The position numbers and the translations under genes are program-made. A DNA stretch of 64,000 nucleotides from positions 1,550,001 to 1,614,000 of the forward strand of contig NZ_CP042326.1 in the NCBI RefSeq assembly GCF_007904085.1, written 5' to 3'. Shown here in pieces: positions 27,549 through 60,890 of the stretch. The notes under the pieces are model-generated. The model saw only the letters and a program-made list of their open reading frames with translations. It made no database searches and was not told where the DNA came from. How positions within the stretch are numbered: the first letter of the stretch is position 1; the number at the start of each line of letters is the position of its first letter. The stretch comes from Euhalothece natronophila Z-M001. Lineage in GTDB: Bacteria > Cyanobacteriota > Cyanobacteriia > Cyanobacteriales > Rubidibacteraceae.

Positions 27549-27891
27549 ACAGGTTTTACAGGGAGAGGTTTATCTGTTCAAAGCAGTTTCTAGCAGTGGG
27601 GAGAGCAAAAAACGCCCTTGGGTGATTGTCTCTGAAAATATCCGCAATCAGTACAGCAGTACCGTGTTAGCAGTTCCTTTCACATCTGAGGCAAACAGAG
27701 TTCCACCGACCCGCGTACGAGTCCCGAAGGGAGAAGGAGGGTTAGCGGTGGATTCTATCGCTATGTGTGACCGCATTACGACGTTAAAGAAAACTTTATT
27801 GGCGCGGGGTCCCTATGGTGGGGTGATTGCTTCTGATTACTTGTTTCAGATTCAAGAGGCGGTGCTGATTGCTTTGGGACGATATAAATAG
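27541..27891 (+). CDS. MazF/PemK-family endoribonuclease toxin
   Basis: A 116-residue toxin with the MazF fold signature: GEVYLFKAVSSSGESKKRPWVIVSEN, then STVLAVPFTSEAN, and DSIAMCDRITTLKKTLL. The RPWVIVS segment and the conserved T in PFTSE are near the expected catalytic groove. Proteins of this kind cleave RNA at short sequences. The start overlaps the antitoxin stop region by 8 nt. A tyrosine recombinase follows 10 bp later. Confidence 0.85.
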   Translation: MSEQVLQGEVYLFKAVSSSGESKKRPWVIVSENIRNQYSSTVLAVPFTSEANRVPPTRVRVPKGEGGLAVDSIAMCDRITTLKKTLLARGPYGGVIASDYLFQIQEAVLIALGRYK

Positions 27892-27901
27892 AGGAAAAAC
27901 A

Positions 27902-28918
27902 ATGGATGAATTGGGGCAAGAAATAGTACAAGCTGAGGCGAGAGTAGTTCGAGACTGTCCGCTGGCGATGGAAACTCCTTTGCCCTTGACTCATCATCCC
28001 GCCGCCGTCTATTTGTCTCAACTCGCGCCGCGATCGCGTAGAACCATGCGTCAGGCGCTAAATTGTCTCGCGGGGATTTTAACTCAAGGACGCTGTGATG
28101 CTTTTACTTTAGATTGGTCTAAACTTCGTTATCCCCAAACCGTTGCCTTACGATCCGTTTTAATGGAAAAGTATTCTCCTGCTACGGCGAATCGGATGTT
28201 ATGTGCGCTACGGCGAACGCTTAAGGAGGCTAAACGGCTGAAGTTAATGCCTTGGGAGGAGTATGCGGATGCGGTGGATTTGCCCAATATTCGAGGGAAA
28301 ACGTTACCGAAGGGGCGGATGTTAGAGGAGTCGGAAATTATAGCACTGTTCCGAGTTTGTTTGGAAGAGAATTCCCCAGGGGGAAAACGAGATGCGGCAA
28401 TGATTGGGATTTTGATGGGAGGATTGAGACGGGCGGAGGTGGTGGCGGTGAGTCTTGAAGATTTGAATCTGAAAACTAGGGGGTTAATGGTTCGTCAGGG
28501 GAAGGGGAATGAAGACCGCATGACTTATTTGCCAGAAGGGGCGTTAAGGGCGGTTTGGGATTGGTTACAGGTTCGGGGAGAAGCTCCAGGGGCGTTGTTA
28601 TGTCCGGTTCAACGCTATGGGAAGGTTGAAATCCGATATATGAATGATCAGGTGGTGATGAATGTGTTACAAAAACGCGCCGCCCAAGCTGGTGTCCCTC
28701 CTTTTACTCCTCATGATTTCAGACGGACTTTTATTAGTAATTTATTAAATACAACGGATTTGCTAACGGTACAGCAGTTAGTGGGACACGCTGATCCGGC
28801 AACTACTGCTAAGTACAATCTACGGGGAGAAGCCGTTAAACAGGATGCTGTGGGACGACTCCATGTTCCTTATCCCGAAACAACTAAGCATTATTATCAA
28901 TTTGAAGAAAATGATTAA
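27902..28918 (+). CDS. Tyrosine recombinase / integrase
   Basis: A 338-residue site-specific recombinase. The SAM-like N-terminal core-binding domain covers about 40-140, and the catalytic domain follows. All catalytic residues are visible: R176 in MGGLRRAEV, H271 and R274 in PHDFRRTF, H296 in LVGHADP and the nucleophile Y305 in TTAKYN. I choose the ATG at 27902 after GAGG; a longer TTG start at 27869 would overlap the toxin gene. GC-rich codon use differs from the AT-rich genes that follow. It may be the integrase of the accessory segment or a stand-alone recombinase. Its 3' end overlaps the next, convergent gene by 35 nt. Confidence 0.88.
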   Translation: MDELGQEIVQAEARVVRDCPLAMETPLPLTHHPAAVYLSQLAPRSRRTMRQALNCLAGILTQGRCDAFTLDWSKLRYPQTVALRSVLMEKYSPATANRMLCALRRTLKEAKRLKLMPWEEYADAVDLPNIRGKTLPKGRMLEESEIIALFRVCLEENSPGGKRDAAMIGILMGGLRRAEVVAVSLEDLNLKTRGLMVRQGKGNEDRMTYLPEGALRAVWDWLQVRGEAPGALLCPVQRYGKVEIRYMNDQVVMNVLQKRAAQAGVPPFTPHDFRRTFISNLLNTTDLLTVQQLVGHADPATTAKYNLRGEAVKQDAVGRLHVPYPETTKHYYQFEEND

Positions 28919-33600: not shown

Positions 33601-34385
33601 GGAGTTCCATTGTCTGCCCAAAGCACATAATCAATATAGCCTTTGCCGGTGCTGTTAGGCATTCCCGTAACTTCATATTCTTGGGCATGGGGTTGGTCAA
33701 TATCCCATCCTGCTTCCCGAAGCAGAAGATCAATGAGGTAATGGCGAGTATCAGCTTCGTTATAGTCGTGGGGATCGCTAACAGCTTGATTTTGCTGTCT
33801 CAGTTCATCAAGTTCCGCTTTCAGGGCATTAAGTTCTTGTTCTGTCTGTTGTCGCCTTGTTTCGGCGATACGACGCATTTCGTCGGTTTCGGAAAGTTGG
33901 GTTTCTAATTCTTGCAGTTGTTGACGGCTATAGTCTTGATTGCCTTGGCTATCTGGGATGAGGTCGCGGTCAAAGGTCAGTGAAGGGAGATTTTTGCCGT
34001 TTGGAGAGTAGAAACGACATAGCCAGTAGAGGATATGAAACAGTTCTTTTACTAAATGAAGCGCGTCTTTTTCACCGATGGGGGTGTTTTGGTGAACAGC
34101 ATGGTTGCCTGTTTTAAGAATAGTGCGGAATTTAGGAAAAAGTCCCGGTTTTAGATTATCTTTGAACGTTTGTTCATGGATTAACGCACCAAGATTGCTA
34201 TCATAGGGGAGTTTAAGATAAGGATCATTAGCATATAGCCATTTAACGGCTTGTTCCAGCGTGTAACGACTATAAAAACAACTAGCACGAGGGGCAGTTT
34301 TCACCAGTTGTTCCGCTTGAGTAGCGTCTTGGTAAAGGTCGGGATAATCGGTTTGGAGGAAGTCGAAATTAGACGGCATTGGCAT
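30607..34385 (-). pseudogene. hsdR: Type I restriction enzyme R subunit, broken by insertion and frameshift
   Basis: The motor and nuclease subunit of an EcoEI-like type I system, in three pieces. 33318-34385 gives the N-terminal DUF4145-like region, a coiled coil and the nuclease core (GYIDYVLWADNG, LALVEAKRTS). An inserted element at about 32973-33320 ends this frame after LRILRLQF. The frame then resumes (PNTEIAGRSYQLEALTR) into the helicase with Walker A MATGTGKTRT and DEAH in IVDEAHRSIYQKYR, and stops at 31200. The C-terminal domain (30607-31200) continues in another frame with REQRQIVYTDFADE, which normally follows without a break. The active enzyme is therefore unlikely unless the parts act separately. 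Confidence 0.85.
32973..33320 (-). mobile_element. Non-autonomous IS200/IS605-like element inside hsdR
   Basis: About 348 bp that exactly separates two parts of hsdR. Subterminal hairpin CCTCTCTTA...TAAGAGAGG (32983-33012) has the loop AAATCAAAGA typical of cyanobacterial IS200/IS605 right ends. Three further hairpins lie at 33218-33236, 33241-33260 and 33259-33283; the last has 12-bp perfect arms. No transposase frame is present. No target duplication is seen, as expected for this family, and ends are placed to within a few bases because flanking A/T runs are ambiguous. The right end, by hairpin, is at the 32973 side. Confidence 0.7.
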
Positions 34386-40434: not shown

Positions 40435-43254
40435 ATGGTTACAACAACAGCACAACAACAGCAAAAACAAACTGCCAGTCGTCCACATACTATCAATGAG
40501 AAACACTGGAAGGACCTAACACGCGATCGCGCTTTACCGCCAAAATGGGTAAAAGCTAATTGTCGGAGCATTGACATTAAAGAAGCCTCTGAGATACTGC
40601 ATTACCAAGCCAAAAGCGATGGCTTACTATTAGAATCTGCCAATGGTCAACAACAATTTAAGCCCGATCAGCCGTGGAGTGGCAAGCAGGGGAAAAAAGC
40701 TCCAAAGTATCGAACCCCTTACAAAGATAATATTGACGCGATGTTACCCATTAATCCTCATGATCCAAACTTCTGGAATAATGAGGAAGAGTTAAAGCAG
40801 GCGTGTTGGATCATCGACGGTGTCCCTTGCCTTATCATTACAGAAGGTTTATTTAAGGCAATCCAAGGAACAGCCAATGGTTTACCCACCATCGCATTAA
40901 CGGGCGTTGAGAATGGCTTAACTGGCAGTAAGGATGACAAGGAAAGTAAACGATATTTAGTGGATCAACCCAGAAGATATGCAGAATTAGGTTTTGGTTT
41001 CATTATTGCCTTTGATGCTGATTGTGCCACCAATAAGAATGTTGTTCGTGCTGAGAAAACCTTTGCTACCAAACTGGAAAAATTTGAAATTCCCGTTTAC
41101 TCTATTACTGGCACTTGGTCAGCAGAAGATGGTAAAGGAATGGACGACTATATCCAGAATCACGGCATTGAAGCCTTCCGAGAGAAATTAATCCAAGCTG
41201 AGTTAGTTCGGGATAAATACAAAAGCGACAATAATGGTGACGGCACTGACAATAAGCCACCGATGGCAGGCGCGATTGGTGAAGAGTTAGCAGAAACTTA
41301 TCGCGATCGCTGGGTTTATTGCTCGGACCTCAGTTCATGGCTAGTTTACGAACTGGAGGAAACTGGCATCTGGTCGATGGTTGCTGACGACTATATCAGC
41401 CATGCCGTTCTGATTGAACTTAAGAATCGGGACATCCATAAGTTCCGTTCTAATAAGTACATGAACAATATCTTGGGATATCTCAAGGATGAATTGTTCA
41501 TTCGGAAGTGGGACGAGCAGCCCAAACGCTACTTACCATTTAAGAACGGCGTTTATGATCTAGAATCTGGCAAGTTTCATGATCACTTGCCGGGCTTCCG
41601 ACTAACTTGGAAGTTACCACGGGATTATTGCATTTTTACCGACGATAAAGATAAAGACTGTAACACCATTTTTACTTTCTTGAAACAGCTTACCAGCGAC
41701 GATTCTAAAAATATAAACACTATCCTTGCCTTTATGGCTGCCCTATTGAAGGGCAAAACAGATATGCAGAAATTCCTTTATCTGCTTGGCTCTGGTGGCA
41801 GTGGCAAATCTACCTTAATGGAGTTGATGACTGAATTAGTGGGTAGCAAAAACGCCACCAGCTTCTCTCTAGAAGATTTAGAGGACAAACACAACATCAT
41901 TGATTTATTCGACAAACGACTGCTTAACCTTCCCGACCAGCCCCCGATATCAAGCCGTAAAAACAGTAACTTTAAGCGGTTAACTGGTGGCGATGACTTA
42001 TCCGGGCGACGGATGAGAAAGGATGTAAGCTCATTTAAGTTTCAAGGCTTGGCAGTGTTAACGAGTAATCAGTTTTGTTTCCCTGCTAGTGCTTCCAACT
42101 GGCTTAACCGCCGCATGATTCTAATTGAGTGTAACAACGTTTTGCCTAAGCGCGATCGGGATTTGAAACTACTTGAGAAGATGAAAGAGGAACTAACTGC
42201 CTTTACCTCTTATCTGCTACATAACTTTGATGATGATCTGATTGAGGAACTAATCCTTAACCCAGATAGTCCCGAGCTAACCCTGGCATCATGGAAACGC
42301 CAGTGTGAATCCGATGGTTTAGCCGCGTGGATCAATGACGAGCTTGTTCCAGAGAATGGCGCGATCGCGATTATTGGAAGTGATGGAAACCGATGGCAGC
42401 AAAAAGATGAGGATTACGATCCTGATGAATCTTCCCTTTACGCTTCCTACTGCCATTACTGCCGCCAGAGTGGACGTAAACCAAAAACCTCCCAAAACTT
42501 CTCTACTGATTTATTAGAAATTTGTAATCAGTTACTAGGTTGGGATGTAGCCAAGGACCTGAAACGCTACGCTGGCAAACCTCAACGAGTAATCGAAGGA
42601 CTGCGACTAAGAACAGACACCGATAACGATATTCCATTAGTTGAGGAAAGATTTTCAGAAAGTGTAACAACCTATAGCCAAGATGTAACAACCCCCGTAA
42701 CAACCCAAAATCCCCATAAACAAAGCGATGTAACAACCGTAACAACCGTAACAACCCAAAACAACAATGAGAAAAAAGAAAAAAATAAACCTCATTTAGC
42801 TTCTGATACTAGTACGGAAAATCAAGCTAATAACTTAGGTTTAAATTCTGAAAATAAAAAGGATGATAAAAACCCTGATACGGTTGTTACACCCACAGAC
42901 AAAAATCCTGAAACCCCTGTAGACTCAGACTCACAGAAAACAGAGCAGGTTGTTACACCATCTGATAAGGGTCGTTACGGGTCGTTACAGGTTGTTACAC
43001 CCTCTGATGATGGAGTGGATTTTTCTACTTACCCTGCACGTCGGGACGATTCCCTCGCCCATAAAGAAAAGCAGGCGAAAAAATGCCGCCGATTATTATC
43101 AGAGTGCCAAACTAATAAAGATATAGAAGATTTTAAGAGTGATTCTGGATTTTCTAAAGCTGAATATAAATGGGTATGGCACAACCTTTTAACAGCTGAT
43201 GAAAGAAAACGGTTACGTCAAGTGGCTAACACTTCTCAGTCGTCCTTATTTTAA
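40435..43254 (+). CDS. DUF3854 primase-like / SF3 helicase replication protein
   Basis: A 939-residue replication protein of plasmid or satellite type. Residues about 80-260 match DUF3854, a Toprim-like region: CLIITEGLFKAIQG, LTGVENGL, FIIAFDADCATN and DGKGMDDYI. Residues about 410-620 form an SF3/D5-type helicase with Walker A GSGGSGKSTLMEL (K458), Walker B-like LFDKRLLNLPDQ and sensor region LAVLTSNQFCFP. Residues about 740-870 are low-complexity with VTT and VVTP repeats, encoded by the iteron-like DNA words described separately. A short helical tail (about 880-939) follows. It probably unwinds and primes DNA at its own origin. The start has a good RBS (GAGGGGAATAAG). Confidence 0.85.
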   Translation: MVTTTAQQQQKQTASRPHTINEKHWKDLTRDRALPPKWVKANCRSIDIKEASEILHYQAKSDGLLLESANGQQQFKPDQPWSGKQGKKAPKYRTPYKDNIDAMLPINPHDPNFWNNEEELKQACWIIDGVPCLIITEGLFKAIQGTANGLPTIALTGVENGLTGSKDDKESKRYLVDQPRRYAELGFGFIIAFDADCATNKNVVRAEKTFATKLEKFEIPVYSITGTWSAEDGKGMDDYIQNHGIEAFREKLIQAELVRDKYKSDNNGDGTDNKPPMAGAIGEELAETYRDRWVYCSDLSSWLVYELEETGIWSMVADDYISHAVLIELKNRDIHKFRSNKYMNNILGYLKDELFIRKWDEQPKRYLPFKNGVYDLESGKFHDHLPGFRLTWKLPRDYCIFTDDKDKDCNTIFTFLKQLTSDDSKNINTILAFMAALLKGKTDMQKFLYLLGSGGSGKSTLMELMTELVGSKNATSFSLEDLEDKHNIIDLFDKRLLNLPDQPPISSRKNSNFKRLTGGDDLSGRRMRKDVSSFKFQGLAVLTSNQFCFPASASNWLNRRMILIECNNVLPKRDRDLKLLEKMKEELTAFTSYLLHNFDDDLIEELILNPDSPELTLASWKRQCESDGLAAWINDELVPENGAIAIIGSDGNRWQQKDEDYDPDESSLYASYCHYCRQSGRKPKTSQNFSTDLLEICNQLLGWDVAKDLKRYAGKPQRVIEGLRLRTDTDNDIPLVEERFSESVTTYSQDVTTPVTTQNPHKQSDVTTVTTVTTQNNNEKKEKNKPHLASDTSTENQANNLGLNSENKKDDKNPDTVVTPTDKNPETPVDSDSQKTEQVVTPSDKGRYGSLQVVTPSDDGVDFSTYPARRDDSLAHKEKQAKKCRRLLSECQTNKDIEDFKSDSGFSKAEYKWVWHNLLTADERKRLRQVANTSQSSLF
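42664..42998. repeat. Two opposed arrays of a 9-bp iteron around an AT-rich spacer (candidate replication origin)
   Basis: GTAACAACC occurs exactly at 42664, 42685, 42697, 42730, 42739 and 42748; the last three are directly tandem. Its reverse complement GGTTGTTAC occurs exactly at 42882, 42948 and 42990, with one-mismatch copies GGTCGTTAC at 42970 and 42980. The 125 bp between the arrays are strongly AT-rich. The arrays lie inside the coding sequence of the primase-helicase, as origins do in some phage and satellite initiator genes. Forward and reverse copies encode different peptides, so the DNA word itself is what is shared. Confidence 0.7.
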
Positions 43255-44470: not shown

Positions 44471-45583
44471 CTAATTGTTTTTTTTCTCTGCAATCACAGC
44501 TTGATTATATAAGTATTCTCCATAGACATCAATATATCGTTTGTATTGATCTGTTTGTCCTAGATTCCGTATTACGCCTAAATCTTTTTCTGGATCTAAT
44601 CCATTGTTCCATCCAATTTCCATCCACGGAAAATTTTTCTTTATTTGATTTTCTATTTGTTTTCCAAAATACATTGCACTCCCTCCTGTTAATACAATTT
44701 TATCCACATCTTGATCTAATTCATCTTTCATCCATGTGATTAATTGTGATGCAAAATCTTCTCTTAATTCTGCTATCTTTTTCTTTAACCGTTCCTTTCT
44801 CTCTGCTTTTTTATATCCTGTTTCTTTCGCTAATAATCGTGACAATGCTCGATCTTCATTTGTTTTTGCTTCCACTAAAAATTTTGTTAATATCCCTTCA
44901 TTTGTGATTCCCTCACTTTCTCCTATTTCATTTGCTAACTTCACCATTCCCAAATCCGTTGTTGCTCCCTTTTGAATTGTTCCTCGTTCCCCGATTACTA
45001 ATGACACATTTCGATATCCCATCATCATTATTGCTACTTTTTTATTATTCTTTTCACTTGGCGATAATGAATGATAGATTCCTTGTCCTTCTACTCGTCG
45101 GACTAAATTGATAAATTCTATATTAATCGATCCAAATTCTGTTTCTATTGGATTTTTTACAAATTCTTTCAATGCTTCAAAATAATCAGGAAAATTATTT
45201 CTTTCTGAATAGGGCAAAAATGATGTTAAATCTACTTTTAAGGTTTTATTTGTTATTTCTTCCCTTGCCGCGATCGCGCTGATTAAACCCACTGTCTTAA
45301 ATACCGCTTTCATAAATTTGCTTTGATTCATCTGGCTTTGCCCCTCATGCTTCTTTGCCAGATACCCCAACGCACAATCTTTATTCTCCGATACCTTGAT
45401 CCAACATCTATCCTCTGGATATCCCCCTTTCCCTATATCTTCTATAAATTTCTCTCTACTTCCTGCTTTTACCTCCGCATCCATGTATAACGTCTTGATC
45501 TTTTTATCTCTCTTTTCATCTGTCTTTTCCCCTATCAAACTATATAAAACTTTTGTTCCACTTGCTCCAAAATCTGCATAAAT
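44471..45583 (-). CDS. parM: ParM/StbA-like actin-family segregation ATPase, start codon unclear
   Basis: An actin-like ATPase that would push plasmid copies apart by filament growth. Phosphate-1 motif YADFGASGTKVLYS is at the very N-terminus, phosphate-2 is in KKVAIMMMGYRNVSLVIGERG, and the adenosine motif is KIVLTGGSAMYF. The first canonical start (TTG at 45538) would remove phosphate-1. Upstream the frame stays open without ATG, GTG or TTG back to a TGA at 45734-45736, through a lysine/asparagine-rich stretch. I place the start at an ATT at 45583 (about 370 residues) only as a minimum that keeps the domain. A -1 frameshift from the upstream gene, an ATT start or a sequencing indel are all possible. 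Confidence 0.75.
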   Translation of the reverse strand: MYADFGASGTKVLYSLIGEKTDEKRDKKIKTLYMDAEVKAGSREKFIEDIGKGGYPEDRCWIKVSENKDCALGYLAKKHEGQSQMNQSKFMKAVFKTVGLISAIAAREEITNKTLKVDLTSFLPYSERNNFPDYFEALKEFVKNPIETEFGSINIEFINLVRRVEGQGIYHSLSPSEKNNKKVAIMMMGYRNVSLVIGERGTIQKGATTDLGMVKLANEIGESEGITNEGILTKFLVEAKTNEDRALSRLLAKETGYKKAERKERLKKKIAELREDFASQLITWMKDELDQDVDKIVLTGGSAMYFGKQIENQIKKNFPWMEIGWNNGLDPEKDLGVIRNLGQTDQYKRYIDVYGEYLYNQAVIAEKKNN

Positions 45584-46659: not shown

Positions 46660-47777
46660 CGATAAGTTAAACAATTATAATGCCATAAAAATCCAGTTTA
46701 TAATAATAATACGTAATAAAATATTTAAATGTAAGAAGGAATAAGCGTTAAGTTCAAGAGGTTTATATGTAATCAAACGACTGCTATTCTCTTTGTTGAT
46801 AGTTTTTAATCCTTATCAAGTTTGTTGGTTTTGTAAAATCCTTTCAGGAGATGTGCAAAATGCTATTGTTTCTTCAGTAGCAATCGCGCTTCTCAGTGGA
46901 ATCTCACTGATTAATCATTGCCAAAAGTAATGAATCTGTTTAATTGTTCTATCTTGAGGAGGGAAGTAGCCAACTGGAGATAGCAATGATAGTTCTCATT
47001 CCTGCCTCGCAAAAGGAGGGTCAATAGAAGGTAGATCCGAGAGAGGTCTTATCTCCCTCAAATTGGGAATTTATAAATTTACCATCTATTTTGTATCTAT
47101 AATCATATTTGTTATTTATTGCAAAATATTAAAGTTATCTCAATCATATTCGTATCGTTATCAATATGATGATTTTTCCTTCTTACCTTCTAACCCCTTA
47201 ATGACTGGGGGGTTTGCGTTTCTTAGCTACTTGGTGGATGCAAGCAGAGTAAAATGTCTGACAACAAAAAGTAGGGGAAATTTTCAAGTTCAGCGCGATC
47301 GCGCCCCACCTTAAAAAAATATAAAAGGAATTGTAATCATAAAACTATAATTTCGCATAATAATGGCTATAAATCAGTCATGGCAATAGATATAGCAGTT
47401 ATACCCCCTTATAACTAAATTGAATTTCTAATATCACTAATCTAAAATTAGATAGCTCATTAAAAAAAAATAGATAAAGCATCTAAATAAGCAGTTTGTA
47501 TTACATAATTATAGGTATTAACATCGAATAAAAAGGGAGAAGTGAAGGCAAAATAGCAAGTAGTAAGACTCGGGAAGAGGAAAAAACGATCACATTACCG
47601 AAATTCTGCTCAGATGAAACCGAAACCTTATTCTAGCATTATGGACTAAATTTGCTTGCAACAAGGAGAACTGACTGACTTAGTCGAAAAAAGAATGAAG
47701 TTATCTTTTATTTCTTTGTAAAAACTTCGTATCACAATTAGTTTATATAGTTGGCAATTTTTTTTAGTTAAGGTACA

Positions 47778-47816
47778 CTGGAACTTTATAGGTAAAACTG
47801 GTACTTTATAGGTAAA
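47778..47816 (+). promoter_or_regulatory. Tandem 19-bp direct repeats before the GHKL gene
   Basis: CTGGAACTTTATAGGTAAA (47778-47796) and CTGGTACTTTATAGGTAAA (47798-47816) differ at one base and have a 20-bp period, about two helical turns. They end 45 bp before the ATG, in the expected promoter position. A repressor or activator site is likely. Confidence 0.6.
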
Positions 47817-47860
47817 GTAAATATTAACATTATCCAAAAAACTTAACAAAGCATCTAAGT

Positions 47861-50800
47861 ATGGCTCGACATCATCCTTTACAAGATATTAAAGATTTAA
47901 GAGACTCTCTACTAGATAATTATCCACCTCAAGCAATTCTAAAAGAACTAATCCAAAATGCGGAAGATGCAAACTCAACTTGTTTTGATTACGGTTGGAG
48001 CAGGGGGATTAAAGATGCTAAACATCCCCTTTTAAAGTCATCGGGAATTTTTATTTTAGATAATGGAAAATTTACTTTAGAAGATGCTGATAACATCCGA
48101 TACTTTAAAGGAAGTGGTAAACATAAAGAAGATAAATCAGAACAAGATTTTATAGGTAAATTTGGTTTAGGGCTTAAAAGTGTTTTCCATATTTGTGAAG
48201 CTTTTTTCTATATTAGTAATTGGACGAAAAAACAAGATGAGAATGGTGATACAATATGGGGATATGGTTTTTTTAATCCTTGGGCAGATAATTATGATGA
48301 AGATAAATATCATCATAATTGGACAAATTTATGTCAATCAGATCGTAATTTAGTTGAACAGGAAATACAACCAATTTTACGTAAAGAAGACTATATTAAA
48401 AAAAGCTGGTTACTAATTTGGATTCCTTTGAGAAAACAAACACACAAAACTAATGATCGCGAGAATAAATATGGATGGATAAAACAAAAATTTTATGAAG
48501 ATAAAAATAACATTGATTGCTTGTTTAATAAGGAAGAGACAAAATATCAATTAGCATTATTATTACCACTATTACGATATTTAACAAAAATTAGGTACTG
48601 GAATAATAAAATTTCAAAAACTGTATTTGAAGTTAGTAATTCAAATAAACACAAGCAACCTATAAAAAATATACCAGCTAATAAAGTAATAAATAATTCT
48701 GGTTATATAAAGTTCAATGATCAACAAAATATTAATATTAATATATCATTTCATTTTTGTAGTAGTGAAATCCGTCCAACTGAATTAAAAAAAGATGTTC
48801 TTAATTTTAAAAATCATGATCAATCTTTTGATCAAGAGATTGAAAAGACTACGCCCTACATAGAAATCGCTTTAACTCGCCTTCCTAATCTTAATGATGA
48901 TAATAATTTAAATATTAGGACAGCTATTTTTCTACCTACTGAACAAAATTGCCAACTTTCAATCAAATCTAAAGATAAGTATTTAATTACGCTAAATGGA
49001 TCTTTTTTTCCTGATTCTTCTAGAAAAGGTATATTAGGTTTTAATCCCGATAATTTTCAAATAGAAGAGCTAAATCAAGATTCTAGAATAATTTGGAATA
49101 AAAAACTGTACGATAAGTTACTTTCAATTCTTTTAAAAGCACTGGAATATTTTTATAAAGAACTTCAAAGTGACTTAGATGAAAATTTAGATCAAGAAAT
49201 AGCAGCCCTTTGTCAGGGACTAAATAATTCACTTCTTAAAACGAATCAAGACATAATTTGCCAAAATTATTGTTGGATTTATCGATTAAAACCAGATTAC
49301 TCAAGGTGGGAACTAATTTCCACTAATAAGCGAATTATAGCGCTACCTAGCTTTGTTAATGATTTATGGATAGAGTTACCAACATTAAAGGATTTTGCTG
49401 ATAAGTATTATTTAACAGTCAAAGAAAAACCAAACCTTATTAAAGAAGATCAATTAAATACTTTTGAAGCATCAGAACTGGTGAACCTATTTGAATCAAT
49501 TAATTCAAAATCTATATTTCAATCGCAAGAACTAAAAGAATTTCTTTTTCAATTTTTAGAAGAGTTTAAAGAGCAATTATCAATTAATGCCGTTAAATAT
49601 TTACTTAAAAAGATCAGGAAGTTTTTAAATCCAAATCAAGATACTGCCAATTTAATTTCCAAGATTATTAATTACTTAGGTAATGAGGATATTGATTCAA
49701 TTACTCTTAGTTATATTCCTGTCTATTCCCTTAAACAGAAATCTAATTATTATTGCCATCCTAATGAACTTCAAAATAAAATTGATAAATCTTTAGTCTT
49801 TAAATATAATAATCAAAATAAAAAAATACGTGATGCTTTACAAGCTGTTTTAGAGAAAGAAGCATTAATTTTAATTGATGAAAATTTAGCCCAGCAATTA
49901 TGGTCACAGAAAATTAAGACCTTTAGTGATAAGGCTTGCTTTGATATTTTATGTCAAAAACCACGACTAACTACTGACTCAGATAAACGTAAAAAACTAG
50001 TAAAGCAATTACAAGACTCAAATCATTCTAAGAAAAAACAAGTAATCCGATTCCTTTTACATAGTAGTATTGAACATTTTGATGACTCTTCAACGCCACT
50101 TTACGTTCAACCCTTATCAATTAATCAAGTTTGGAAAAAAATAGCGTCTTACACGTTACCACCATGGCAAGTTTTAGATACTCAATTAGCCCATAACATT
50201 CCAGAAGAGCAATGGCAGTCTTTCAATATTGAACCTATTTTACCTGATTCTTTAATTCGGCAATTAACACCAGAAAAAATTACAGGTGATATTTTACCGA
50301 GTCGAGAAGAGCGTGAGGAAGTATTAAGTGAAATTGCTAAAAAAAAGGATAATAAAAATTTTTGGAAACGTCTCCCACTTCATGAAACGGTTGATAGTTA
50401 CTTAGTTTCAATTAATGAAAAAACTTACCTAAATAACAGGAAATTTCCTCTAGACCAGTATCCTGAATTAAGGTCTCTTGTCACCTTAATTGATGAAAAG
50501 TACACTAATCAACCAGAGTGGATTCCCTTATGGAGTCCAACAGAAGCAGTTAAGTTAGTTTTACAACAAAATCAGCCTGAACAATATGACCAACTATTGC
50601 TAAAGGTACTCCATAAGTACTGTGATAATGTATGTAATGACAAGGAATTACTAAATCAACTTAAAAACACTCCATGGCTTAAGCTATCCAAAGGCGGAAG
50701 TATTTGTCCTAATCAGCTCATTTTCTTAGGGGAGCGAATTCAGAACTTAACCTCGGTTATAGAAGAGGCTTTTTGCAATGAAAGTCAAGTTGATTATGTA

Positions 50801-53800
50801 ATTAATACACAGTTACCTAATTCAATTCCACAAGAACAAATAAATCTTCTTAAGAATAAACTTTCTCCTACTTGGTATGAAAATGATCTATTAAAGTTTT
50901 TGCTGGATAAGACGTATGACCCTTCTACTTACTGTAAAGCAATTTTAGATTTATTGAAAAGTATTTATAAAAATAAACAAAAAATTCGTAATGAAAACTT
51001 TGAAAAACTTAAACAAAGCCACTGGTTAATTGATAAAAAAAATCAATCACTATCACCGCAACAAATATGTTATTTACCTAACTTAAATGATAAATATACA
51101 GAGATATTAAAGCAATTTTCATCTTGGGATTATATTACGCCGAAATTACTGAAAGAAGAGCTAAATATTAATTTGTATTTAGAGTATTCTCAATTTAAAA
51201 ATCTATTTTTATCAGAAAAAACTTCTATTCAAAAATTAGGCGACGCGATCGCGCAACTTCCTCAATACTATATTGGCAATGTTGATTTAGAACTCAAAGA
51301 GCTAAGTCAAGTTTTATCAAATTGTGAACTAATGCCAATTTGGGAAATTTATTTCCAAGTTCCCCAGCAACAATTTAAATCAGATATACTACCTAAAGTT
51401 AAAAAGCCAGTTTCAGATATTGAATGGTTATGTAAACTCTTAAAATGGATGACAGCAAGCTATCAAAAACCTAATGAAGATGTTATTAAAGTTTATAATA
51501 ATTATTTAAAATTATTTATTAATTCAGGCGCTAACTTAAATCAAAAAATTAAAAATTTAGCTGAACTAAAATTACTCAATAAAAACTTTGATTGGCAAGA
51601 CCCAAAATCACTATGTGTTCCTAAAACATATGGCATAAATAAGACTTATCTTATAGATGATAACCAATATCAGATCATCAAACAATTACTTAATTATCAG
51701 AGTAATTATACTCCATCAGATTTATTGGAATATCAGCAGTCAACTAATAATAGTAATGAACAAAAAACTAATGCAGAAACTTTAAAAGAATACTTTAAAG
51801 ATTGGATTAATACTACGAGTATATCTCCACCTGTAATTGGTTTGTTTTTAATGATATTTTATAATAATGATGATGAAATTAAAGAATTAGCTCAAAACTT
51901 TCTTGGAAAACATTCATTTGATAACATCTATTCAATATTATTTCGTGATCCAATACGTAATCCAAACTCTGAAAAGTGTGATTTAAAAATTACAATCAGT
52001 ACAGAAAATAAAATTACTGTTAAAAATTTATTCAATGCTAAATTTTATGTTGATGTATTACAACATAACCCGACAAACTTATTTATTGGAGAGTTAAATA
52101 AATCTAATGAAATCATTTTGAAACAAATTACAGCCAATAAGTTAAGTAAAGAAAATTTAGAAAATATTCTATTTAATAGTATAAAAGAATGGTTAAAAAC
52201 CTATAATAACGATATTAGTTCAATAAAACTTGATTCTCGTATTGATAATCAACTTAAACCAATTTTAATAGAAGCCCAAAAACTAGAAATTTATAATGCT
52301 CGTGATTTTATTATTGAAAATTGTTCATATACATTAAGAGTCTTAGAAATAAATAATAAATCGCTTATTGATACAATGGAACAAATAGACGACAAAAGAT
52401 ATGATAGACTTAGCTTAGAGAAGCAAACGCCAATAATTAAAAATAATATTAATAATGTATCAGCCGAAATTAAAAGAAAGATTAAATCAATTCAAGATAC
52501 AATAAAAAATAATACAGATGTCCAAAATGACTTGTTAGTTTCTGTTCGTAAAAAAATTCAAAACTTTGGCTATTCAAATAAAAGTGTTTTATTTGAGCTT
52601 TTTCAAAATGCAGATGATGCAGCACTAGAGCGAAATCATTTTCTTAATTCTAATGATTACAGATATAGCAAAACTGAAGAATGTGTTATTTCTTTAAATT
52701 CGAGTGAACTTGAGTTGATCCACTGGGGAAGACCCATTAATCAATTTAGCGACCCTACATTGAATAAGCGATTACAAGGAAAGGGTTATCAACGTGATTT
52801 AGTGAAAATGCTATCGTTCAATATTTCTGATAAAAATGAGGAGGCAACAGGAGAATTCGGTTTAGGTTTTAAGACGGTTTATCTGTTGACTGATTGTCCC
52901 AAAGTTCATAGTGGTAATTTAAGTTTTCAAGTCAATGGTGGAATTTTACCAGAGCCTATTACCGACTTAGATGAGATTCAAAAATTACAGAAGCGAATTA
53001 AGCAATTTCAACAACCAGATCAAGATAGCATTGATGGAACAATAATTAAGCTACCGATTTCGGCTCGGAATGATAGACAGCTTATTCAGTCTATTATTAA
53101 CGAATTTAAGTCTTATACACATTTGATCCTTGCCTTTGCTAAAAAAATCAAATCTTGTCGTATTGAAAGTGATCAAGTCAAAACTATTAAGTGGGAACCT
53201 GAGAAAGTTTTAGGAATAGATGGCATTGAATGTGATGTTGTTCAAAACCAACCAACACTTTGCTTTCGGTTAAAGAAAGGACAAGTCGCGATCGCGTTAC
53301 CTCGTAAATTAGATGATGATGAAGACTCCTTTTTAAGGGAAATGCCAACTTTTTGGGTCACAGTTCCCACTAAAGAATTACTATCATTACGCTTTGTAGT
53401 TAATAGTCAATTTGACATAAATCCCGGTCGAACTAGCCTTGATCCTAATTCTACTGATAATCAAGAGTTAATTAGTGAAATTGGTGAGCAATTAGGAGAA
53501 AAACTATGTCAATTATTTCAAGCCTCACAGGGAAACTGGGAAACGCTACACCAGCAAATTGGTTTAGATGAACAAGTTAATCCTTATCAGTTTTGGGAAT
53601 TTTTATGGAAGGTACTAGCTGTTGATTGGCTTGACAAACTAGATGAACAACATAAGTCAGAACTATTAAAAAACGGATTTGGAGGTGAGTATAATGGGGT
53701 TGGTCATCTGATTAGTTGTCATCCCACTCTTCCTAATGGACTATATGGAGATTATCGTCAATTAGTCTGTTTTACTGAACTAGCTTATGTCGTAACAGGG

Positions 53801-55384
53801 ATATTAAAACAACAAGAAATATTTGAAATTGTTTCCCCATGGTCCCAGTTTCAACAACACTACCAACCTAATTGTTTAGTTCACGAAGATATTTGGCAAT
53901 ACCTTCAAAGGTTACTACAAACTGATGAACCTGATGAACTAGAGTCGTTAACTTTACAGAAAGTTATTGAAAAACAATTGGGAGATAATAATATTTCTCC
54001 TGAAAATGCATCACAAATTGGTCAATTAATTGAAATAATTGAAAACTGGTATAGTAACGAAATTCAAGAAATTAACAATTTTTTTAGCAGTCATTCTATC
54101 TTGTTTATGAATAAAGAAAAAGAATACTACCCAGCTACTTCACTTTTAACGCCACACAGTTCTGATCAAGAAGAACAATATTTGGTACAATTTGCTCCTC
54201 TAGAACGGATTTTACATGAAGATTATAATAATCAAGCACTTAAGTTTTTCTTCAAGTGCCGTTCCCAACGAAAAACAATTGAAATTGCAGAACTAGTGGA
54301 ATGGGCAAAACAAGCTAGTACTGAAAAGCAAAAACAAGCCGTACGAAATTACTTGTTAGAAGGCAATTATAAAGAAGGATTTGAAAAACAATTAAAACAG
54401 AAATATAAAGGAAGTTGGATTGAAAAAGACGAGGGGATTCAACGCATACTAGAATTCAATCAAACTAAGGCTAAAGTTAAACAAGCTAATAAAGGAGAAT
54501 GTAGTTGGAATGAATTGGATCTTGATGATTCCAATCAATCTCAGGATTCATCATATAAAGACATAAAATCAGTCGATGTGAATCAAGTGCAAAAAAGTCT
54601 AGAAGACTTATCTAGTTGGTGGAATCGTCACTATCAAGACAAACTTAAAAAATATAATCGAGAGCTTTACCCAACTGAAATTGAGAATTTAAAATATGGG
54701 TTAAAACAGCGTGATCGTGAAGCCTGGCTTATCCTATTTTTTATTGGTATAACCCATACAATGGGAAGAACAATAAAACCGCAACATAAAGGTTTCATTG
54801 AACTGTGCGAAGAAAAAGGTTGGTGGGAAACTTTTAAGCAACCGAATCCACAGGAAAATTCAGAAAAATGGTTTAAAGTTTTAGATGAATACATTGAAAA
54901 GCTAAAGCAAGATACCAAGTGGTACTATTGGATGGAAAAATATCCTCATATTTACCAAATTTCAAAATATTTAGACGTTTATCAAGACTTATTTTTAAAA
55001 GCAGATCGATGGAGTCAAAAATGGGGCAACCAATTTAGTCTTCAGAAATTGGTTTCTCCAAGGAGTAATGAGCAGCTTTCTGGAGGAGGTTTGGATGCTC
55101 CGCCTTTATCAATAGGGATGGGAGCTAACTTTGTTCTACGTGAATTAATCAGATTAGAAGTAATTGAGCCTACTCCCGATTTAATTCCCTACTGTTTCGT
55201 TCCCCGAAAACAAATTAGAGAAAACTTGAGTTATTTAGGTTGTCAAAATATAGATCAGGAAAATTATGATAAATATGATAAAATGTCTAAAAGTATCTAT
55301 TATTTTCTGGAAAAAAATGGTGTAGAAGATTGTACCTTTAACAACAGTTTTGATATTGCAATTGAGTTGTATTGGAAGTATTGA
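47861..55384 (+). CDS. Giant double-GHKL (sacsin/MORC-like) ATPase
   Basis: A 2507-residue cytoplasmic protein. The first GHKL ATPase module is at about 1-420: N-box ELIQNAEDAN (E29, N33, D36), G1 ILDNGKFTLEDADNI (D67, G69) and G2 GKFGLGLKSVFHI (99-111). A long helical middle (about 430-1520) has no recognised domain. A second module begins near 1560: FELFQNADDA (E1579, N1583, D1586), LIHWGRPIN in place of the usual DxG, and GEFGLGFKTVYLLTD (from 1664). Residues about 1950-2507 are unassigned. Eukaryotic sacsin repeats such modules in one chain, and MORC-like GHKL proteins occur in prokaryotic restriction-type loci with SNF2 helicases. The ATG has only a weak RBS. The gene is very AT-rich and is followed by the helicase. 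Confidence 0.82.
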   Translation: MARHHPLQDIKDLRDSLLDNYPPQAILKELIQNAEDANSTCFDYGWSRGIKDAKHPLLKSSGIFILDNGKFTLEDADNIRYFKGSGKHKEDKSEQDFIGKFGLGLKSVFHICEAFFYISNWTKKQDENGDTIWGYGFFNPWADNYDEDKYHHNWTNLCQSDRNLVEQEIQPILRKEDYIKKSWLLIWIPLRKQTHKTNDRENKYGWIKQKFYEDKNNIDCLFNKEETKYQLALLLPLLRYLTKIRYWNNKISKTVFEVSNSNKHKQPIKNIPANKVINNSGYIKFNDQQNININISFHFCSSEIRPTELKKDVLNFKNHDQSFDQEIEKTTPYIEIALTRLPNLNDDNNLNIRTAIFLPTEQNCQLSIKSKDKYLITLNGSFFPDSSRKGILGFNPDNFQIEELNQDSRIIWNKKLYDKLLSILLKALEYFYKELQSDLDENLDQEIAALCQGLNNSLLKTNQDIICQNYCWIYRLKPDYSRWELISTNKRIIALPSFVNDLWIELPTLKDFADKYYLTVKEKPNLIKEDQLNTFEASELVNLFESINSKSIFQSQELKEFLFQFLEEFKEQLSINAVKYLLKKIRKFLNPNQDTANLISKIINYLGNEDIDSITLSYIPVYSLKQKSNYYCHPNELQNKIDKSLVFKYNNQNKKIRDALQAVLEKEALILIDENLAQQLWSQKIKTFSDKACFDILCQKPRLTTDSDKRKKLVKQLQDSNHSKKKQVIRFLLHSSIEHFDDSSTPLYVQPLSINQVWKKIASYTLPPWQVLDTQLAHNIPEEQWQSFNIEPILPDSLIRQLTPEKITGDILPSREEREEVLSEIAKKKDNKNFWKRLPLHETVDSYLVSINEKTYLNNRKFPLDQYPELRSLVTLIDEKYTNQPEWIPLWSPTEAVKLVLQQNQPEQYDQLLLKVLHKYCDNVCNDKELLNQLKNTPWLKLSKGGSICPNQLIFLGERIQNLTSVIEEAFCNESQVDYVINTQLPNSIPQEQINLLKNKLSPTWYENDLLKFLLDKTYDPSTYCKAILDLLKSIYKNKQKIRNENFEKLKQSHWLIDKKNQSLSPQQICYLPNLNDKYTEILKQFSSWDYITPKLLKEELNINLYLEYSQFKNLFLSEKTSIQKLGDAIAQLPQYYIGNVDLELKELSQVLSNCELMPIWEIYFQVPQQQFKSDILPKVKKPVSDIEWLCKLLKWMTASYQKPNEDVIKVYNNYLKLFINSGANLNQKIKNLAELKLLNKNFDWQDPKSLCVPKTYGINKTYLIDDNQYQIIKQLLNYQSNYTPSDLLEYQQSTNNSNEQKTNAETLKEYFKDWINTTSISPPVIGLFLMIFYNNDDEIKELAQNFLGKHSFDNIYSILFRDPIRNPNSEKCDLKITISTENKITVKNLFNAKFYVDVLQHNPTNLFIGELNKSNEIILKQITANKLSKENLENILFNSIKEWLKTYNNDISSIKLDSRIDNQLKPILIEAQKLEIYNARDFIIENCSYTLRVLEINNKSLIDTMEQIDDKRYDRLSLEKQTPIIKNNINNVSAEIKRKIKSIQDTIKNNTDVQNDLLVSVRKKIQNFGYSNKSVLFELFQNADDAALERNHFLNSNDYRYSKTEECVISLNSSELELIHWGRPINQFSDPTLNKRLQGKGYQRDLVKMLSFNISDKNEEATGEFGLGFKTVYLLTDCPKVHSGNLSFQVNGGILPEPITDLDEIQKLQKRIKQFQQPDQDSIDGTIIKLPISARNDRQLIQSIINEFKSYTHLILAFAKKIKSCRIESDQVKTIKWEPEKVLGIDGIECDVVQNQPTLCFRLKKGQVAIALPRKLDDDEDSFLREMPTFWVTVPTKELLSLRFVVNSQFDINPGRTSLDPNSTDNQELISEIGEQLGEKLCQLFQASQGNWETLHQQIGLDEQVNPYQFWEFLWKVLAVDWLDKLDEQHKSELLKNGFGGEYNGVGHLISCHPTLPNGLYGDYRQLVCFTELAYVVTGILKQQEIFEIVSPWSQFQQHYQPNCLVHEDIWQYLQRLLQTDEPDELESLTLQKVIEKQLGDNNISPENASQIGQLIEIIENWYSNEIQEINNFFSSHSILFMNKEKEYYPATSLLTPHSSDQEEQYLVQFAPLERILHEDYNNQALKFFFKCRSQRKTIEIAELVEWAKQASTEKQKQAVRNYLLEGNYKEGFEKQLKQKYKGSWIEKDEGIQRILEFNQTKAKVKQANKGECSWNELDLDDSNQSQDSSYKDIKSVDVNQVQKSLEDLSSWWNRHYQDKLKKYNRELYPTEIENLKYGLKQRDREAWLILFFIGITHTMGRTIKPQHKGFIELCEEKGWWETFKQPNPQENSEKWFKVLDEYIEKLKQDTKWYYWMEKYPHIYQISKYLDVYQDLFLKADRWSQKWGNQFSLQKLVSPRSNEQLSGGGLDAPPLSIGMGANFVLRELIRLEVIEPTPDLIPYCFVPRKQIRENLSYLGCQNIDQENYDKYDKMSKSIYYFLEKNGVEDCTFNNSFDIAIELYWKY

Positions 55385-55424
55385 GGTGAAAATCAATAAG
55401 GTATTGATTCAAGGAAAATCAGTT

Positions 55425-58130
55425 ATGGATGAGTATAATCGCGGAGATCAAGTAAGTCATTCTCAATATGGCAATGGTGAAGTAATTGTCGATAATGGAG
55501 AAACTGTTGTTGTTCGTTTTGAGCAGGGAATAGAAGAATGTCCGAAATCAAGACTATCTCCTCTTCAATCACTTACAGAAGCCATTGTTGCTTCCCAGTG
55601 GCATAATCCGCAAGAAACAATTGCCCATACTCAAGCATTAGCAATTCGATCAGTTAATGATATGTGGGGAGTTTTCTCTTTAGCTAAAATTAAACTACTC
55701 CCTCACCAGCTATGGGTTTGTCGCAAAGTCGTACAAAAACTCCCTGCTCGTTGGTTAATTGCTGACGATGTTGGATTGGGAAAAACCATTGAAGCTGGCT
55801 TAATTCTATGGACGTTACTTAGCAAAAATGCAATTAAGCGCGTCTTAATTTTATGTCCTGCCAGCCTTGTTGAGCAATGGCAAGAGCGACTGCGTACCAT
55901 GTTTGATATTCGCATGACGCGCTACACGACAGAGGCAGATACGCCAAAAAGCGATTTTTGGCAGACCCACTCTCAAGTAATCGCTTCTCTGCCTACTTTA
56001 AGGAAAGATCACCGTAATCGTCACCAACGCTTGTTTGAAGCTGAACCTTGGGATTTAGTAATCGTAGATGAAGCACATCACCTTAATGCTGATGAGCAAA
56101 CTGGACCTACCCTTGGGTATAACTTGATGCATCGCCTTATCCATGAACATCAAAAAGTTAAATCTGCCGTCTTTTTTACAGGTACTCCCCATCGAGGAAA
56201 ACACTATCAGTTCTTTTCATTACTGAAACTTCTTCGGAATGATCTCTTTGATCCGATAAGCGCTACAAGTTCACCTACTGAACTTCAAACTCAGATGAAA
56301 AATTTACATCTAGTCATGTTGCGAAATAACAAACAGTTAGTAACAGACATGATGGGTAAAAAACTTTTTTCTCCTGTTCGTGTTTCCTCAGAAACCTATA
56401 GCTATTCTGCTGAAGAAGAAGCATTTTATACTAAGCTTACAGATTTTATTGTTAGTGGAAAAGCCTATGCTTCGGGACTAAGCATAGTCAATCAAAAAGC
56501 TGTGATGTTAATCCTAACTTGTATGCAAAAATTAGCATCTAGCTCAGTTACTGCAATTCGGAGTGCTTTAGAAAAAAGGCTTGATAAAATTACTCAAAAA
56601 CGTGAACAATTACAGAAAGCTAAAAATCAAAAAGCGATTATTGAAGAATTTGAAGATGAAGAAAATATTGATAGCGACGAACTGAATAAATTAGAAGAAG
56701 AAATTTTTGAACTTAGTTTAAAAGTGGATTTAATGGAAGATGAAAAACCTAAGCTAGAAGAATTAATTGAGGCTGCTAAATTAGTTAAAAAAGAGACAAA
56801 AATTGATAAAATTTTAGAAATTTTAGAGACTCGATTTATTAATCGTCATGTGATATTTTTTACTGAGTATAAGGCGACGCAATCTTTAGTAATGTCAGCC
56901 CTAATTTCCCGTTACGGTAGTAATTGCGTCACTTTCATCAATGGAGATGAAAGGGTAGAAAAAGTTGTAGAAGAAAATGGTAAAGTAAAGGCTCGCGTAG
57001 AAAAAAAAGAACGTGCAGCGGAAAGATTTAATTCAGGAGAAGCTCAATTTTTGGTATCTACCGAAGCAGGTGGAGAAGGAATTGACTTGCAAGAAAATTG
57101 TCATTCTTTAATTCATGTAGATTTACCTTGGAATCCGATGCGATTACACCAGCGAGTGGGGCGATTGAATCGCTACGGTCAAAAATATCCAGTGGAAGTC
57201 ATTAGCTTACGAAATCCTGATACAGTAGAAACCCGAATTTGGGATAAGTTAAATGAAAAAATTGATAATATTACAGAGTCGCTCAAGCAGGTAATGGACG
57301 AACCTGAAGACTTGCTACAGTTAGTATTAGGTATGACCTCACCTAAATTATTTCGAGAGGTTTTTAGTGAAGCTGAGCAACATAAAGAAAATTTAAATCA
57401 GTGGTTTGATTCCAAAACTGCTACATTTGGCGGTCAAGATGCTGTAAAAACTGTAAAAGATTTAGTTGGCAGTTGCGAAAAATTTGATTTTCAGCAAGTG
57501 TCTCCCTTACTGCCACAGGTTGATTTACCAGAGTTGCAACCCTTTTTTGAAACAATGCTTCAGCTTAACAAGAGACGTATTGTTCGTAGCGATCAGGGAT
57601 TATCTTTTATTACGCCAGAACCTTGGTTAGTTGATCCTGCCATCAGAGAACGCTACGAAGATCTACATTTTGATCGCAACTGTCAAAATAAACGTAAGGT
57701 TAATTATTTGCTCGGTGTAGGACACCACTTGATGAATCAGGCGTTAAATCAAGCATTGGACTTGTCGAGTTGTGTAACGCAATTAAATCAACTCAAAGAG
57801 ATTATAGTCGTTTTTCAAATATTTGATCGCGTTACTAGTACTCAAAGTAATGTTCAGCAAGTTGTTGCTGGCATTAAAGTTGACCCAGATAATCATCAAA
57901 ATAAAGAACTTCTGAAGGATTGGGAACTATTGAAAATTTTAAATGAACAAATTGAAAAATTAGATAAAACAGGTCACGCAAACTCACCCTCAATTAATAC
58001 AGACCAAATTTTAAAACTTTTAGAAGATGCTAAATATTATTTTACTACTCAGTGGGACATTCTAGACTTACCTTTTGAATTTCCAAAGGCTCAAGCTAGC
58101 ATGTTACTCTATCCAAGTAAGAGTACATGA
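55425..58130 (+). CDS. SNF2-family helicase/translocase partner of the GHKL protein
   Basis: A 901-residue SF2 translocase. A small N-terminal SH3/Tudor-like domain (NRGDQVSHSQYGNGEVIVDN, VVVRFEQG) resembles the tail domain of UvrD-type helicases. The motor follows: Walker A DDVGLGKTIEAG (K120), DEAH at 215-218 in VIVDEAHHLNADEQTG, FFTGTPHRGKHYQFF, a coiled-coil insert about 400-450, STEAGGEGIDLQ and motif VI HQRVGRLNRYGQK from H575. The architecture is close to RapA and DISARM DrmD-like helicases. No nuclease or methyltransferase domain is seen. I use the ATG at 55425 after AAGGAAAA, 40 bp after the GHKL gene; a longer in-frame start overlapping that gene is possible. Confidence 0.87.
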   Translation: MDEYNRGDQVSHSQYGNGEVIVDNGETVVVRFEQGIEECPKSRLSPLQSLTEAIVASQWHNPQETIAHTQALAIRSVNDMWGVFSLAKIKLLPHQLWVCRKVVQKLPARWLIADDVGLGKTIEAGLILWTLLSKNAIKRVLILCPASLVEQWQERLRTMFDIRMTRYTTEADTPKSDFWQTHSQVIASLPTLRKDHRNRHQRLFEAEPWDLVIVDEAHHLNADEQTGPTLGYNLMHRLIHEHQKVKSAVFFTGTPHRGKHYQFFSLLKLLRNDLFDPISATSSPTELQTQMKNLHLVMLRNNKQLVTDMMGKKLFSPVRVSSETYSYSAEEEAFYTKLTDFIVSGKAYASGLSIVNQKAVMLILTCMQKLASSSVTAIRSALEKRLDKITQKREQLQKAKNQKAIIEEFEDEENIDSDELNKLEEEIFELSLKVDLMEDEKPKLEELIEAAKLVKKETKIDKILEILETRFINRHVIFFTEYKATQSLVMSALISRYGSNCVTFINGDERVEKVVEENGKVKARVEKKERAAERFNSGEAQFLVSTEAGGEGIDLQENCHSLIHVDLPWNPMRLHQRVGRLNRYGQKYPVEVISLRNPDTVETRIWDKLNEKIDNITESLKQVMDEPEDLLQLVLGMTSPKLFREVFSEAEQHKENLNQWFDSKTATFGGQDAVKTVKDLVGSCEKFDFQQVSPLLPQVDLPELQPFFETMLQLNKRRIVRSDQGLSFITPEPWLVDPAIRERYEDLHFDRNCQNKRKVNYLLGVGHHLMNQALNQALDLSSCVTQLNQLKEIIVVFQIFDRVTSTQSNVQQVVAGIKVDPDNHQNKELLKDWELLKILNEQIEKLDKTGHANSPSINTDQILKLLEDAKYYFTTQWDILDLPFEFPKAQASMLLYPSKST

Positions 58131-60491: not shown

Positions 60492-60723
60492 GAAGCTATT
60501 TTTTCAGTTGCTAGTGTAATGGAAACTGACTGATAGATTTCTTTCTCATGAATCATTCCTGACTGCTATATTTAAGTGAAATTAATCTCTAAAAACATTG
60601 CCAATCAAGAATTTTATATGATTAGCCGAGGGTCTATTGTGAGCTACTTGTAACGGTCTTCTTTTTGGTCTCGGATTAGAAGATATAGTGATTCCAAATA
60701 AAAAACAGCAACCTAAAAGTAGT

Positions 60724-60762
60724 GGGAGCATCTTGCTCCCTAGTAGCAGCCAAGATGGCTGC
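60724..60762. repeat. Pair of adjacent short palindromes of a cyanobacterial repeat type
   Basis: GGGAGCATCTTGCTCCC (60724-60740) and GCAGCCAAGATGGCTGC (60746-60762) each form a 7-bp stem with a three-base loop, separated by TAGTA. A short frame through this region (60582-60764) is probably not a gene. Such palindromes are dispersed in several cyanobacterial genomes, from memory. Confidence 0.5.
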
Positions 60763-60785
60763 ACTACGGAACTGAATTGGAACGA

Positions 60786-60890
60786 CTATAATTGCTTTTC
60801 GATGAGATGATCGTTCTTTGCCATAAATTCCAGCATTTCCTCGAATGGCAAATCAATCGTCTCACCAGATTTTAATTTAGCAGTAGCCAT
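60786..60890 (-). CDS. Short peptide, possibly a gene remnant
   Basis: 34 codons from an ATG at 60890: MATAKLKSGETIDLPFEEML and FMAKNDHLIEKQL. It looks like the beginning of a small antitoxin-like or regulatory protein. No clear RBS is present and the family is not known to me. Confidence 0.3.
   Translation of the reverse strand: MATAKLKSGETIDLPFEEMLEFMAKNDHLIEKQL

Follow-up and report, generated by a model that had tools for sequence, protein, structure and literature searches.

Is a giant sacsin-like ATPase encoded directly ahead of an SNF2 translocase an immune system in its own right, and if so, how could it act? The question is raised by two adjacent genes of Euhalothece natronophila Z-M001 (contig NZ_CP042326.1), found in a 64,000-nucleotide stretch of the forward strand (positions 1,550,001 to 1,614,000) that we call the window. 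Gene 1 encodes a 2507-residue chain with two GHKL ATPase modules, hereafter the giant, which is present as a single copy in the 3.5-Mb genome. Gene 2 encodes the SNF2 translocase. The original prediction, made from the DNA letters, took the pair for a candidate undescribed defence system. Based on genomic context, the pair probably serves in defence against viruses or plasmids, and neither protein has a detectable nuclease, methylase or toxin domain.

The two genes belong to a conserved operon with little space between them. A search with a profile built from six SNF2s recovered 45 genomic loci and one locus from a viral collection, all of one full-length subfamily; a scan of the genome contigs with the giant alone returned nothing, and the SNF2 alignment was the effective seed. 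Of the 46 loci, 44 encode the giant (or its C-terminal end on short contigs) ahead of the SNF2 gene and in the same orientation; the two exceptions have an SNF2 gene whose start is 57 or 240 bp from a contig end. With three exceptions, the intergenic gap is about -13 to +31 bp. It widens to about 0.7-0.8 kb in L047 and L049, both from Chromatiaceae. One locus (L048) is a broken version, with the giant interrupted and the SNF2 intact. A giant-like neighbour is lacking in 33 of 35 other SNF2 loci, and that of the remaining two, both from Verrucomicrobia, is very distant. A search seeded with the GHKL giant found three giants in 351 Sphingomonadales genomes, one of them in the genome on which the search was centred, and each is followed by an SNF2 at about 44-50% identity. 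The co-occurrence on which the original prediction depended is therefore seen from both sides.

The giant is one chain in the 28 loci with a full-length open reading frame (ORF). Trichormus, Pseudanabaena and Sphingomonas have it split, and in Synechocystis and Phormidesmis it consists of several ORFs; the relative from the cyanobacterial phylum search (G091) is Synechocystis salina. Plasmid records of Trichormus, Deinococcus and Sphingomonas carry the pair, always with both genes, and the D. wulumuqiensis plasmid pDrdI carries two copies of it. No third gene is common to more than a few of the pair loci.

Some further loci were also seen. Two from Verrucomicrobiota (L103, L108) encode an SNF2 that is very distant (28% identity) and directly preceded by a large ORF of very weak similarity; they perhaps hint at a wider superfamily of such pairs. 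In Haematobacter (L034) a shortened giant has no SNF2 annotated alongside. Two alphaproteobacterial plasmids (L034, L032) have a gene for a TM0106-family RecB-like nuclease in the vicinity of the giant.

Domain content of the giant and the SNF2 translocase

Signature residues are retained in the SNF2 motor and in both ATP-binding modules, which are of the Hsp90/sacsin type. Pfam SACS (PF25794) matches the giant twice, above its cutoff (1.6e-32), as does NCBIfam P_loop_sacsin, the sacsin ATP-binding domain. The N-boxes and glycine loops lie where the original prediction had placed them and are invariant in 31 giant homologues: E29, N33, D36, G99, G102, G104 and K106 in module 1, and E1579, N1583, D1586, G1664, G1667, G1669 and K1671 in module 2. 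Each sacsin repeat keeps an arginine in its middle domain that has been termed the phosphate acceptor (PMC3629688). The corresponding residues here, R388 and R1857, are invariant in the 31 giants, so that the giant combines a twofold SACS module with the middle-domain arginine of a sacsin-type protein. Its closest PDB relative by sequence profile is sacsin, and the predicted structure of module 2 (predicted local distance difference test, pLDDT, 85) has Hsp90 and TRAP1 as top fold matches. Judged from profiles and structure prediction, the modules are of the sacsin/Hsp90 type. Of the two kinships first proposed for this ATPase, the sacsin one holds; a MORC-like identity was rejected because the best relatives by profile and by fold are sacsin and Hsp90.

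Outside the modules, residues 430-1520 and 1885-2507 are predicted to form a helical scaffold. The middle region is poorly conserved across homologues, and for part of it the structure prediction has low confidence. For residues 430-1520, a PDB fold search gave no match at E<=0.001, the insignificant resemblances being mostly alpha-solenoids, and a PDB profile search gave no match at E<=1. The C-terminal region contains invariant residues (W2254, G2421, R2427, E2428, D2498), has no notable relative in the PDB profile search and shows no nuclease or HEPN signature. The original prediction saw no nuclease and left room for one in residues 430-1520 and 1950-2507, where none appeared by profile, fold or conservation. 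Profile and fold searches returned no nuclease, and the 31 giants share no conserved D/E/K/H set; a HEPN or nuclease effector was rejected on conservation and fold.

Gene 2 has intact SNF2-rel_dom and Helicase_C domains (Pfam) and keeps motifs I, II, III, V and VI in 44 subfamily members, in agreement with the intact motor described at the outset 40 bp downstream of the giant. RapA is its best solved relative (1.5e-46). The NCBIfam RapA model aligns over residues 103-806 but scores below the equivalog cutoff; the SNF2 is thus not RapA itself. Its architecture is RapA-like, and by analogy its length and the position of its motor appear to fit the Tudor, SNF2 and C-terminal layout of RapA and BrxHII (PMC12839542). 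RapA-type helicases carry a degenerate restriction endonuclease (REase) fold, and the REase-like domain of RapA and BrxHII is reported inactive (PMC12839542). The 44 SNF2s have no conserved nuclease signature (D/E/K/H set).

Mobility, defence context and relatives within known systems

The SNF2s fall into a single clade (99*) whose members come from at least 12 phyla. Gemmatimonadota and Acidobacteriota members are nested within Pseudomonadota groups in the tree, a mixture that suggests horizontal transfer. The pair with its cognate SNF2 is rare (2/386 cyanobacterial and 3/351 Sphingomonadales genomes) and often resides on plasmids, including conjugative ones. From 34 loci, 112 flanking genes match 233 PADLOC models at 1e-20, compared with 12 models for 112 random genes taken mostly from carrier genomes; since models and not genes are counted, these figures give the direction of the enrichment and not its exact size. 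The flanks of other SNF2 loci are themselves defence-rich and hence uninformative as a control, for which the random genes were used instead. Models matched beside the pair include type IIG and DrmMI methylases, a Druantia methylase and MkoA. Restriction-modification (R-M) genes are frequent neighbours, and both the Trichormus plasmid and Marinobacterium have a locus of DISARM (defence island system associated with restriction-modification) close to the pair.

Four other cyanobacterial genomes encode the giant in two parts, as genes of about 807-854 and 1678-1967 amino acids (aa). In one (G374, L025/L026), this split pair sits within a BREX (bacteriophage exclusion) operon between PglX and PglZ, in the order BrxA, BrxB, BrxC, PglX, pair, PglZ, BrxD, BrxHI. 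In another (G183, L019/L020), it lies inside a DISARM operon between DrmMI and a macro-domain gene (DrmD ... DrmMI, pair, macro, UvrD, DrmA, DrmB). The third copy (G305, L021) is beside DrmMI-like and DpdE-like genes, and the fourth (G125) is accompanied by a macro gene only. The macro-domain gene (DarG-like, 217-227 aa) directly follows the split pair in G183 and G305. In a tree built on the second GHKL module, the four split giants and the four cyanobacterial SNF2-paired giants, the window's included, group in one clade (99*); the module is thus mobile between stand-alone pairs and BREX or DISARM, in a direction that the tree does not show. A split sacsin-like pair within these operons is apparently unreported so far, and a 2026 BREX survey makes no mention of Hsp90, GHKL or sacsin (PMC12839542). 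The expected link to mobile and defence loci is thus found in plasmids, in defence-rich flanks and in GHKL members inside BREX and DISARM operons.

How does the pair compare with systems already described? The motor belongs to the same RapA-type superfamily as DrmD of DISARM, and the PADLOC DrmD model PDLC02634 covers it end to end (1324 bits). In contrast, the NCBIfam models score it far below their cutoffs, at 290 bits for DrmD (cutoff 610) and 182 for DrmD_b (cutoff 950), and the operon has no DrmA, DrmB, DrmC or methylase (neither DrmMI nor DrmMII), the sacsin-like giant standing in their place. DrmA has no match in the window genome, and 10 of 14 carrier genomes lack it as well. On these grounds membership in DISARM was rejected despite the PADLOC name. 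The first reading had allowed that the system might already be catalogued. The PADLOC match means that the motor is, under DISARM, a name that does not fit; our literature search, which covered papers outside subscription, found none that names the pair.

Tiamat is a single-gene system. Its TmtA is also a large GHKL ATPase defence protein, but TmtA models have 1370-1782 aa, whereas the giant is a two-repeat protein of 2507 aa that is accompanied by an SNF2 in almost all loci, and the TmtA profile matches it only weakly (76 bits, over short stretches of a 1486-position model). Iyer et al. (PMC2292703) described in 2008 loci in which a GHKL ATPase (MORC, paraMORC) adjoins a superfamily II helicase, SNF2 included, as in the pair; sacsin is not mentioned. 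There, nucleases or methylases accompany MutL-like GHKL+S5 proteins, whereas the repeats seen here are of the Hsp90/sacsin type and our loci have no nuclease or methylase in common. BrxHII of type 3 BREX, ArmA of ARMADA and DpdE share the Tudor and SNF2 architecture of gene 2 (PMC12839542, PMC12458937), but partner with a methylase, an ATPase or YprA, and none is reported with a sacsin-like protein. VcSduA, a Shedu protein with a GHKL domain, needs its ATPase for defence, and its E27A mutant is an experimental precedent for an essential GHKL domain in a defence protein; unlike the pair, it has its own PD-(D/E)XK nuclease and no SNF2 (PMC12137116). The pair is of the kind of defence loci that join GHKL and superfamily II helicase genes, and there is a real chance that it is a separate class.

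Animal sacsin (SACS), the loss of which causes a human ataxia, resembles the giant in its very large repeats, its repeated Hsp90-like modules and the conserved arginine in each middle domain. It has three such repeats against the giant's two, and its Ubl, DnaJ and HEPN domains were not found in the giant, which is encoded with a DNA translocase. To our knowledge, Hsp90-type giants like sacsin have no established role in prokaryotes.

A putative clamp and the competing explanations

We are evenly divided on whether the pair is a mobile two-gene immune module in which the motor delivers the giant and the giant clamps DNA or a phage complex, blocking it without cutting. The RapA-type motor could track incoming double-stranded DNA or strip bound complexes off it, and would bring the giant to the invading DNA. 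There, the two GHKL modules may close on ATP as an intramolecular pseudo-dimer, in the manner of Hsp90, and the closed modules would form a clamp on DNA or on a complex for phage replication or transcription, so that the invader would be halted by physical blocking or remodelling. Within BREX or DISARM, those systems may provide the DNA recognition and so replace the cognate SNF2. Such a clamp agrees with the absence of nuclease, methylase and toxin, with the presence of two GHKL modules in each chain and with the VcSduA precedent. We put forward only tentatively that the motor delivers a clamp that closes on ATP and acts by blocking or remodelling phage nucleoprotein. Slightly more doubtful still is the broader proposal of a new nuclease-free immune class, in which the translocase loads an intramolecular Hsp90/sacsin-type clamp on invading nucleoprotein and the clamp is lent to BREX and DISARM.

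Several observations weigh against the two-gene immune module. The adenine-contacting aspartate of canonical GHKL proteins is replaced in both modules, by asparagine in module 1 and by histidine in module 2 (each in 29 of 31 giants), so that ATP hydrolysis by the giant is not assured. The Hsp90 fold matches cover the domain level only (template modelling score about 0.25). The cognate SNF2 is missing in four of six cyanobacterial GHKL carriers, and in G125 no SNF2 lies within 33 kb of the split giant. The clamp and its contact with the motor are purely inferred, and how self DNA would be spared without a methylase is left unexplained by the model.

The same BREX and DISARM operons would suit a giant that is a chaperone-like accessory of a nearby restriction-type system (BREX, DISARM or type I R-M), in a pair without defence activity of its own. 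The DISARM loci near the pair in Trichormus and Marinobacterium and the common R-M neighbours agree with this, yet most loci have no common third gene or partner system, DrmA is missing in most carriers and PglZ, like DrmA, is absent from the window genome; we regard this explanation as unlikely. That the pair is an orphan or decayed DISARM, DrmD with an unknown subunit, would account for the full-length PADLOC match. We hold it to be extremely improbable given the missing DrmA, the low NCBIfam score and an SNF2 family that forms its own clade and is always accompanied by the giant.

A cutting mechanism would need a nuclease too divergent to detect, in the giant's middle or in the C-terminal domain of the SNF2. 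The poor conservation and partly low-confidence prediction of the former and the degenerate REase fold of RapA-type helicases leave it some room, but the lack of a conserved D/E/K/H set in either family, the empty profile and fold searches and the inactive REase domains of BrxHII and RapA (PMC12839542) make it quite improbable. A housekeeping or stress machine, in which a RapA-like recycler of RNA polymerase works with its own Hsp90-type chaperone, would agree with the closest solved relatives, RapA for the motor and Hsp90/sacsin for the ATPase. The very patchy distribution, the plasmid-borne and horizontally mixed occurrence and the enrichment beside defence genes argue otherwise, and we consider it very unlikely.

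If the immune reading is true, the sacsin repeat architecture of animals would have immune relatives in prokaryotes, BREX and DISARM would gain an apparently unreported accessory module, and annotation would be corrected, as half of the system is now named DrmD and filed under DISARM. The near-obligate partnership with a DNA translocase, seen in at least 12 phyla and in defence contexts, opens the way to a direct test.

Coordinates and local setting in the window

The giant gene starts at 47861 (Table 1) and not at 47778, where the locus had first been taken to begin; the latter position falls at a direct repeat just upstream, a possible candidate for a regulator-binding site. The mechanical SNF2 ORF spans 55350-58130 on the plus strand (926 aa) and opens at TTG 55350. 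The ATG at 55425, 40 bp past the stop codon of the giant, is better placed and was preferred.

Table 1. Features of the pair and its surroundings (window positions)
Feature	Position	Strand	Basis or detail
Gene 1, two-repeat sacsin-like GHKL giant, 2507 aa	47861..55384	+	ORF, ATG start; Pfam SACS x2, NCBIfam P_loop_sacsin x2
GHKL module 1, residues 16-247	47906..48601	+	N-box E29, glycine loop 99-106; G1 motif N-D/N-G
Hsp90-middle-domain-like LHGxFFxDxGR segment	48911..49036	+	Invariant R388 (31/31); matches position of the sacsin sr2 phosphate-acceptor Arg (PMC3629688)
Predicted fast-evolving helical scaffold, residues 430-1520	49148..52420	+	AlphaFold2 pLDDT 78, helical
GHKL module 2 and middle domain, residues ~1550-1890	52508..53530	+	N-box E1579, HWGRxxN replacing DxGxG, glycine loop 1664-1671, R1857
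Predicted conserved helical C-terminal region, residues 1885-2507	53513..55381	+	AlphaFold2 pLDDT 85, alignments
Gene 2, RapA/DrmD-type SNF2 translocase, 901 aa	55425..58130	+	PADLOC PDLC02634 full length; RapA closest solved relative
Putative N-terminal Tudor/SH3-like domain (approximate)	55425..55649	+	Position and conservation; analogy with RapA and BrxHII (PMC12839542)
SNF2 motor	55677..57374	+	Motifs I DDVGLGKT, II DEAHH, III GTPHRGK, V TEAGGEGIDLQ, VI HQRVGRLNRYGQ
Two tandem 20-bp direct repeats	47777..47816	+	Repeat search; 45 bp before the giant gene
Phage-type integrase	27869-28918	+	
Type I R-M locus, hsdR in three pieces	30.6-37.8 kb		
Broken hsdR	30607-34385	-	HSDR_N 33318-34385, core 31200-32873, EcoEI_R_C 30607-31200
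P4-type primase with DUF3854	40435-43254	+	

Other defence genes had been expected to adjoin the pair. A type I R-M locus with intact hsdM and hsdS is indeed present in the window, but it is the nearest, about 10 kb upstream, and its hsdR is in three ORFs. Together with the integrase and the P4-type primase upstream, it suggests an integrated mobile element, which may carry the pair. No attachment-site repeats were found, and synteny with congeners gave no island borders, the congeners being too divergent. An ORF on the minus strand (44471-45538) has weak OrfB_IS605 and actin-like matches (FcmB-like, barely over noise) and possibly encodes a plasmid or filament protein. Downstream of the pair, a repeat of about 110 bp (60684-60798) occurs in at least nearly 40 places in the genome among the matches listed, and several times in the congener G119; it is a dispersed element, either like a miniature inverted-repeat transposable element or of another kind.
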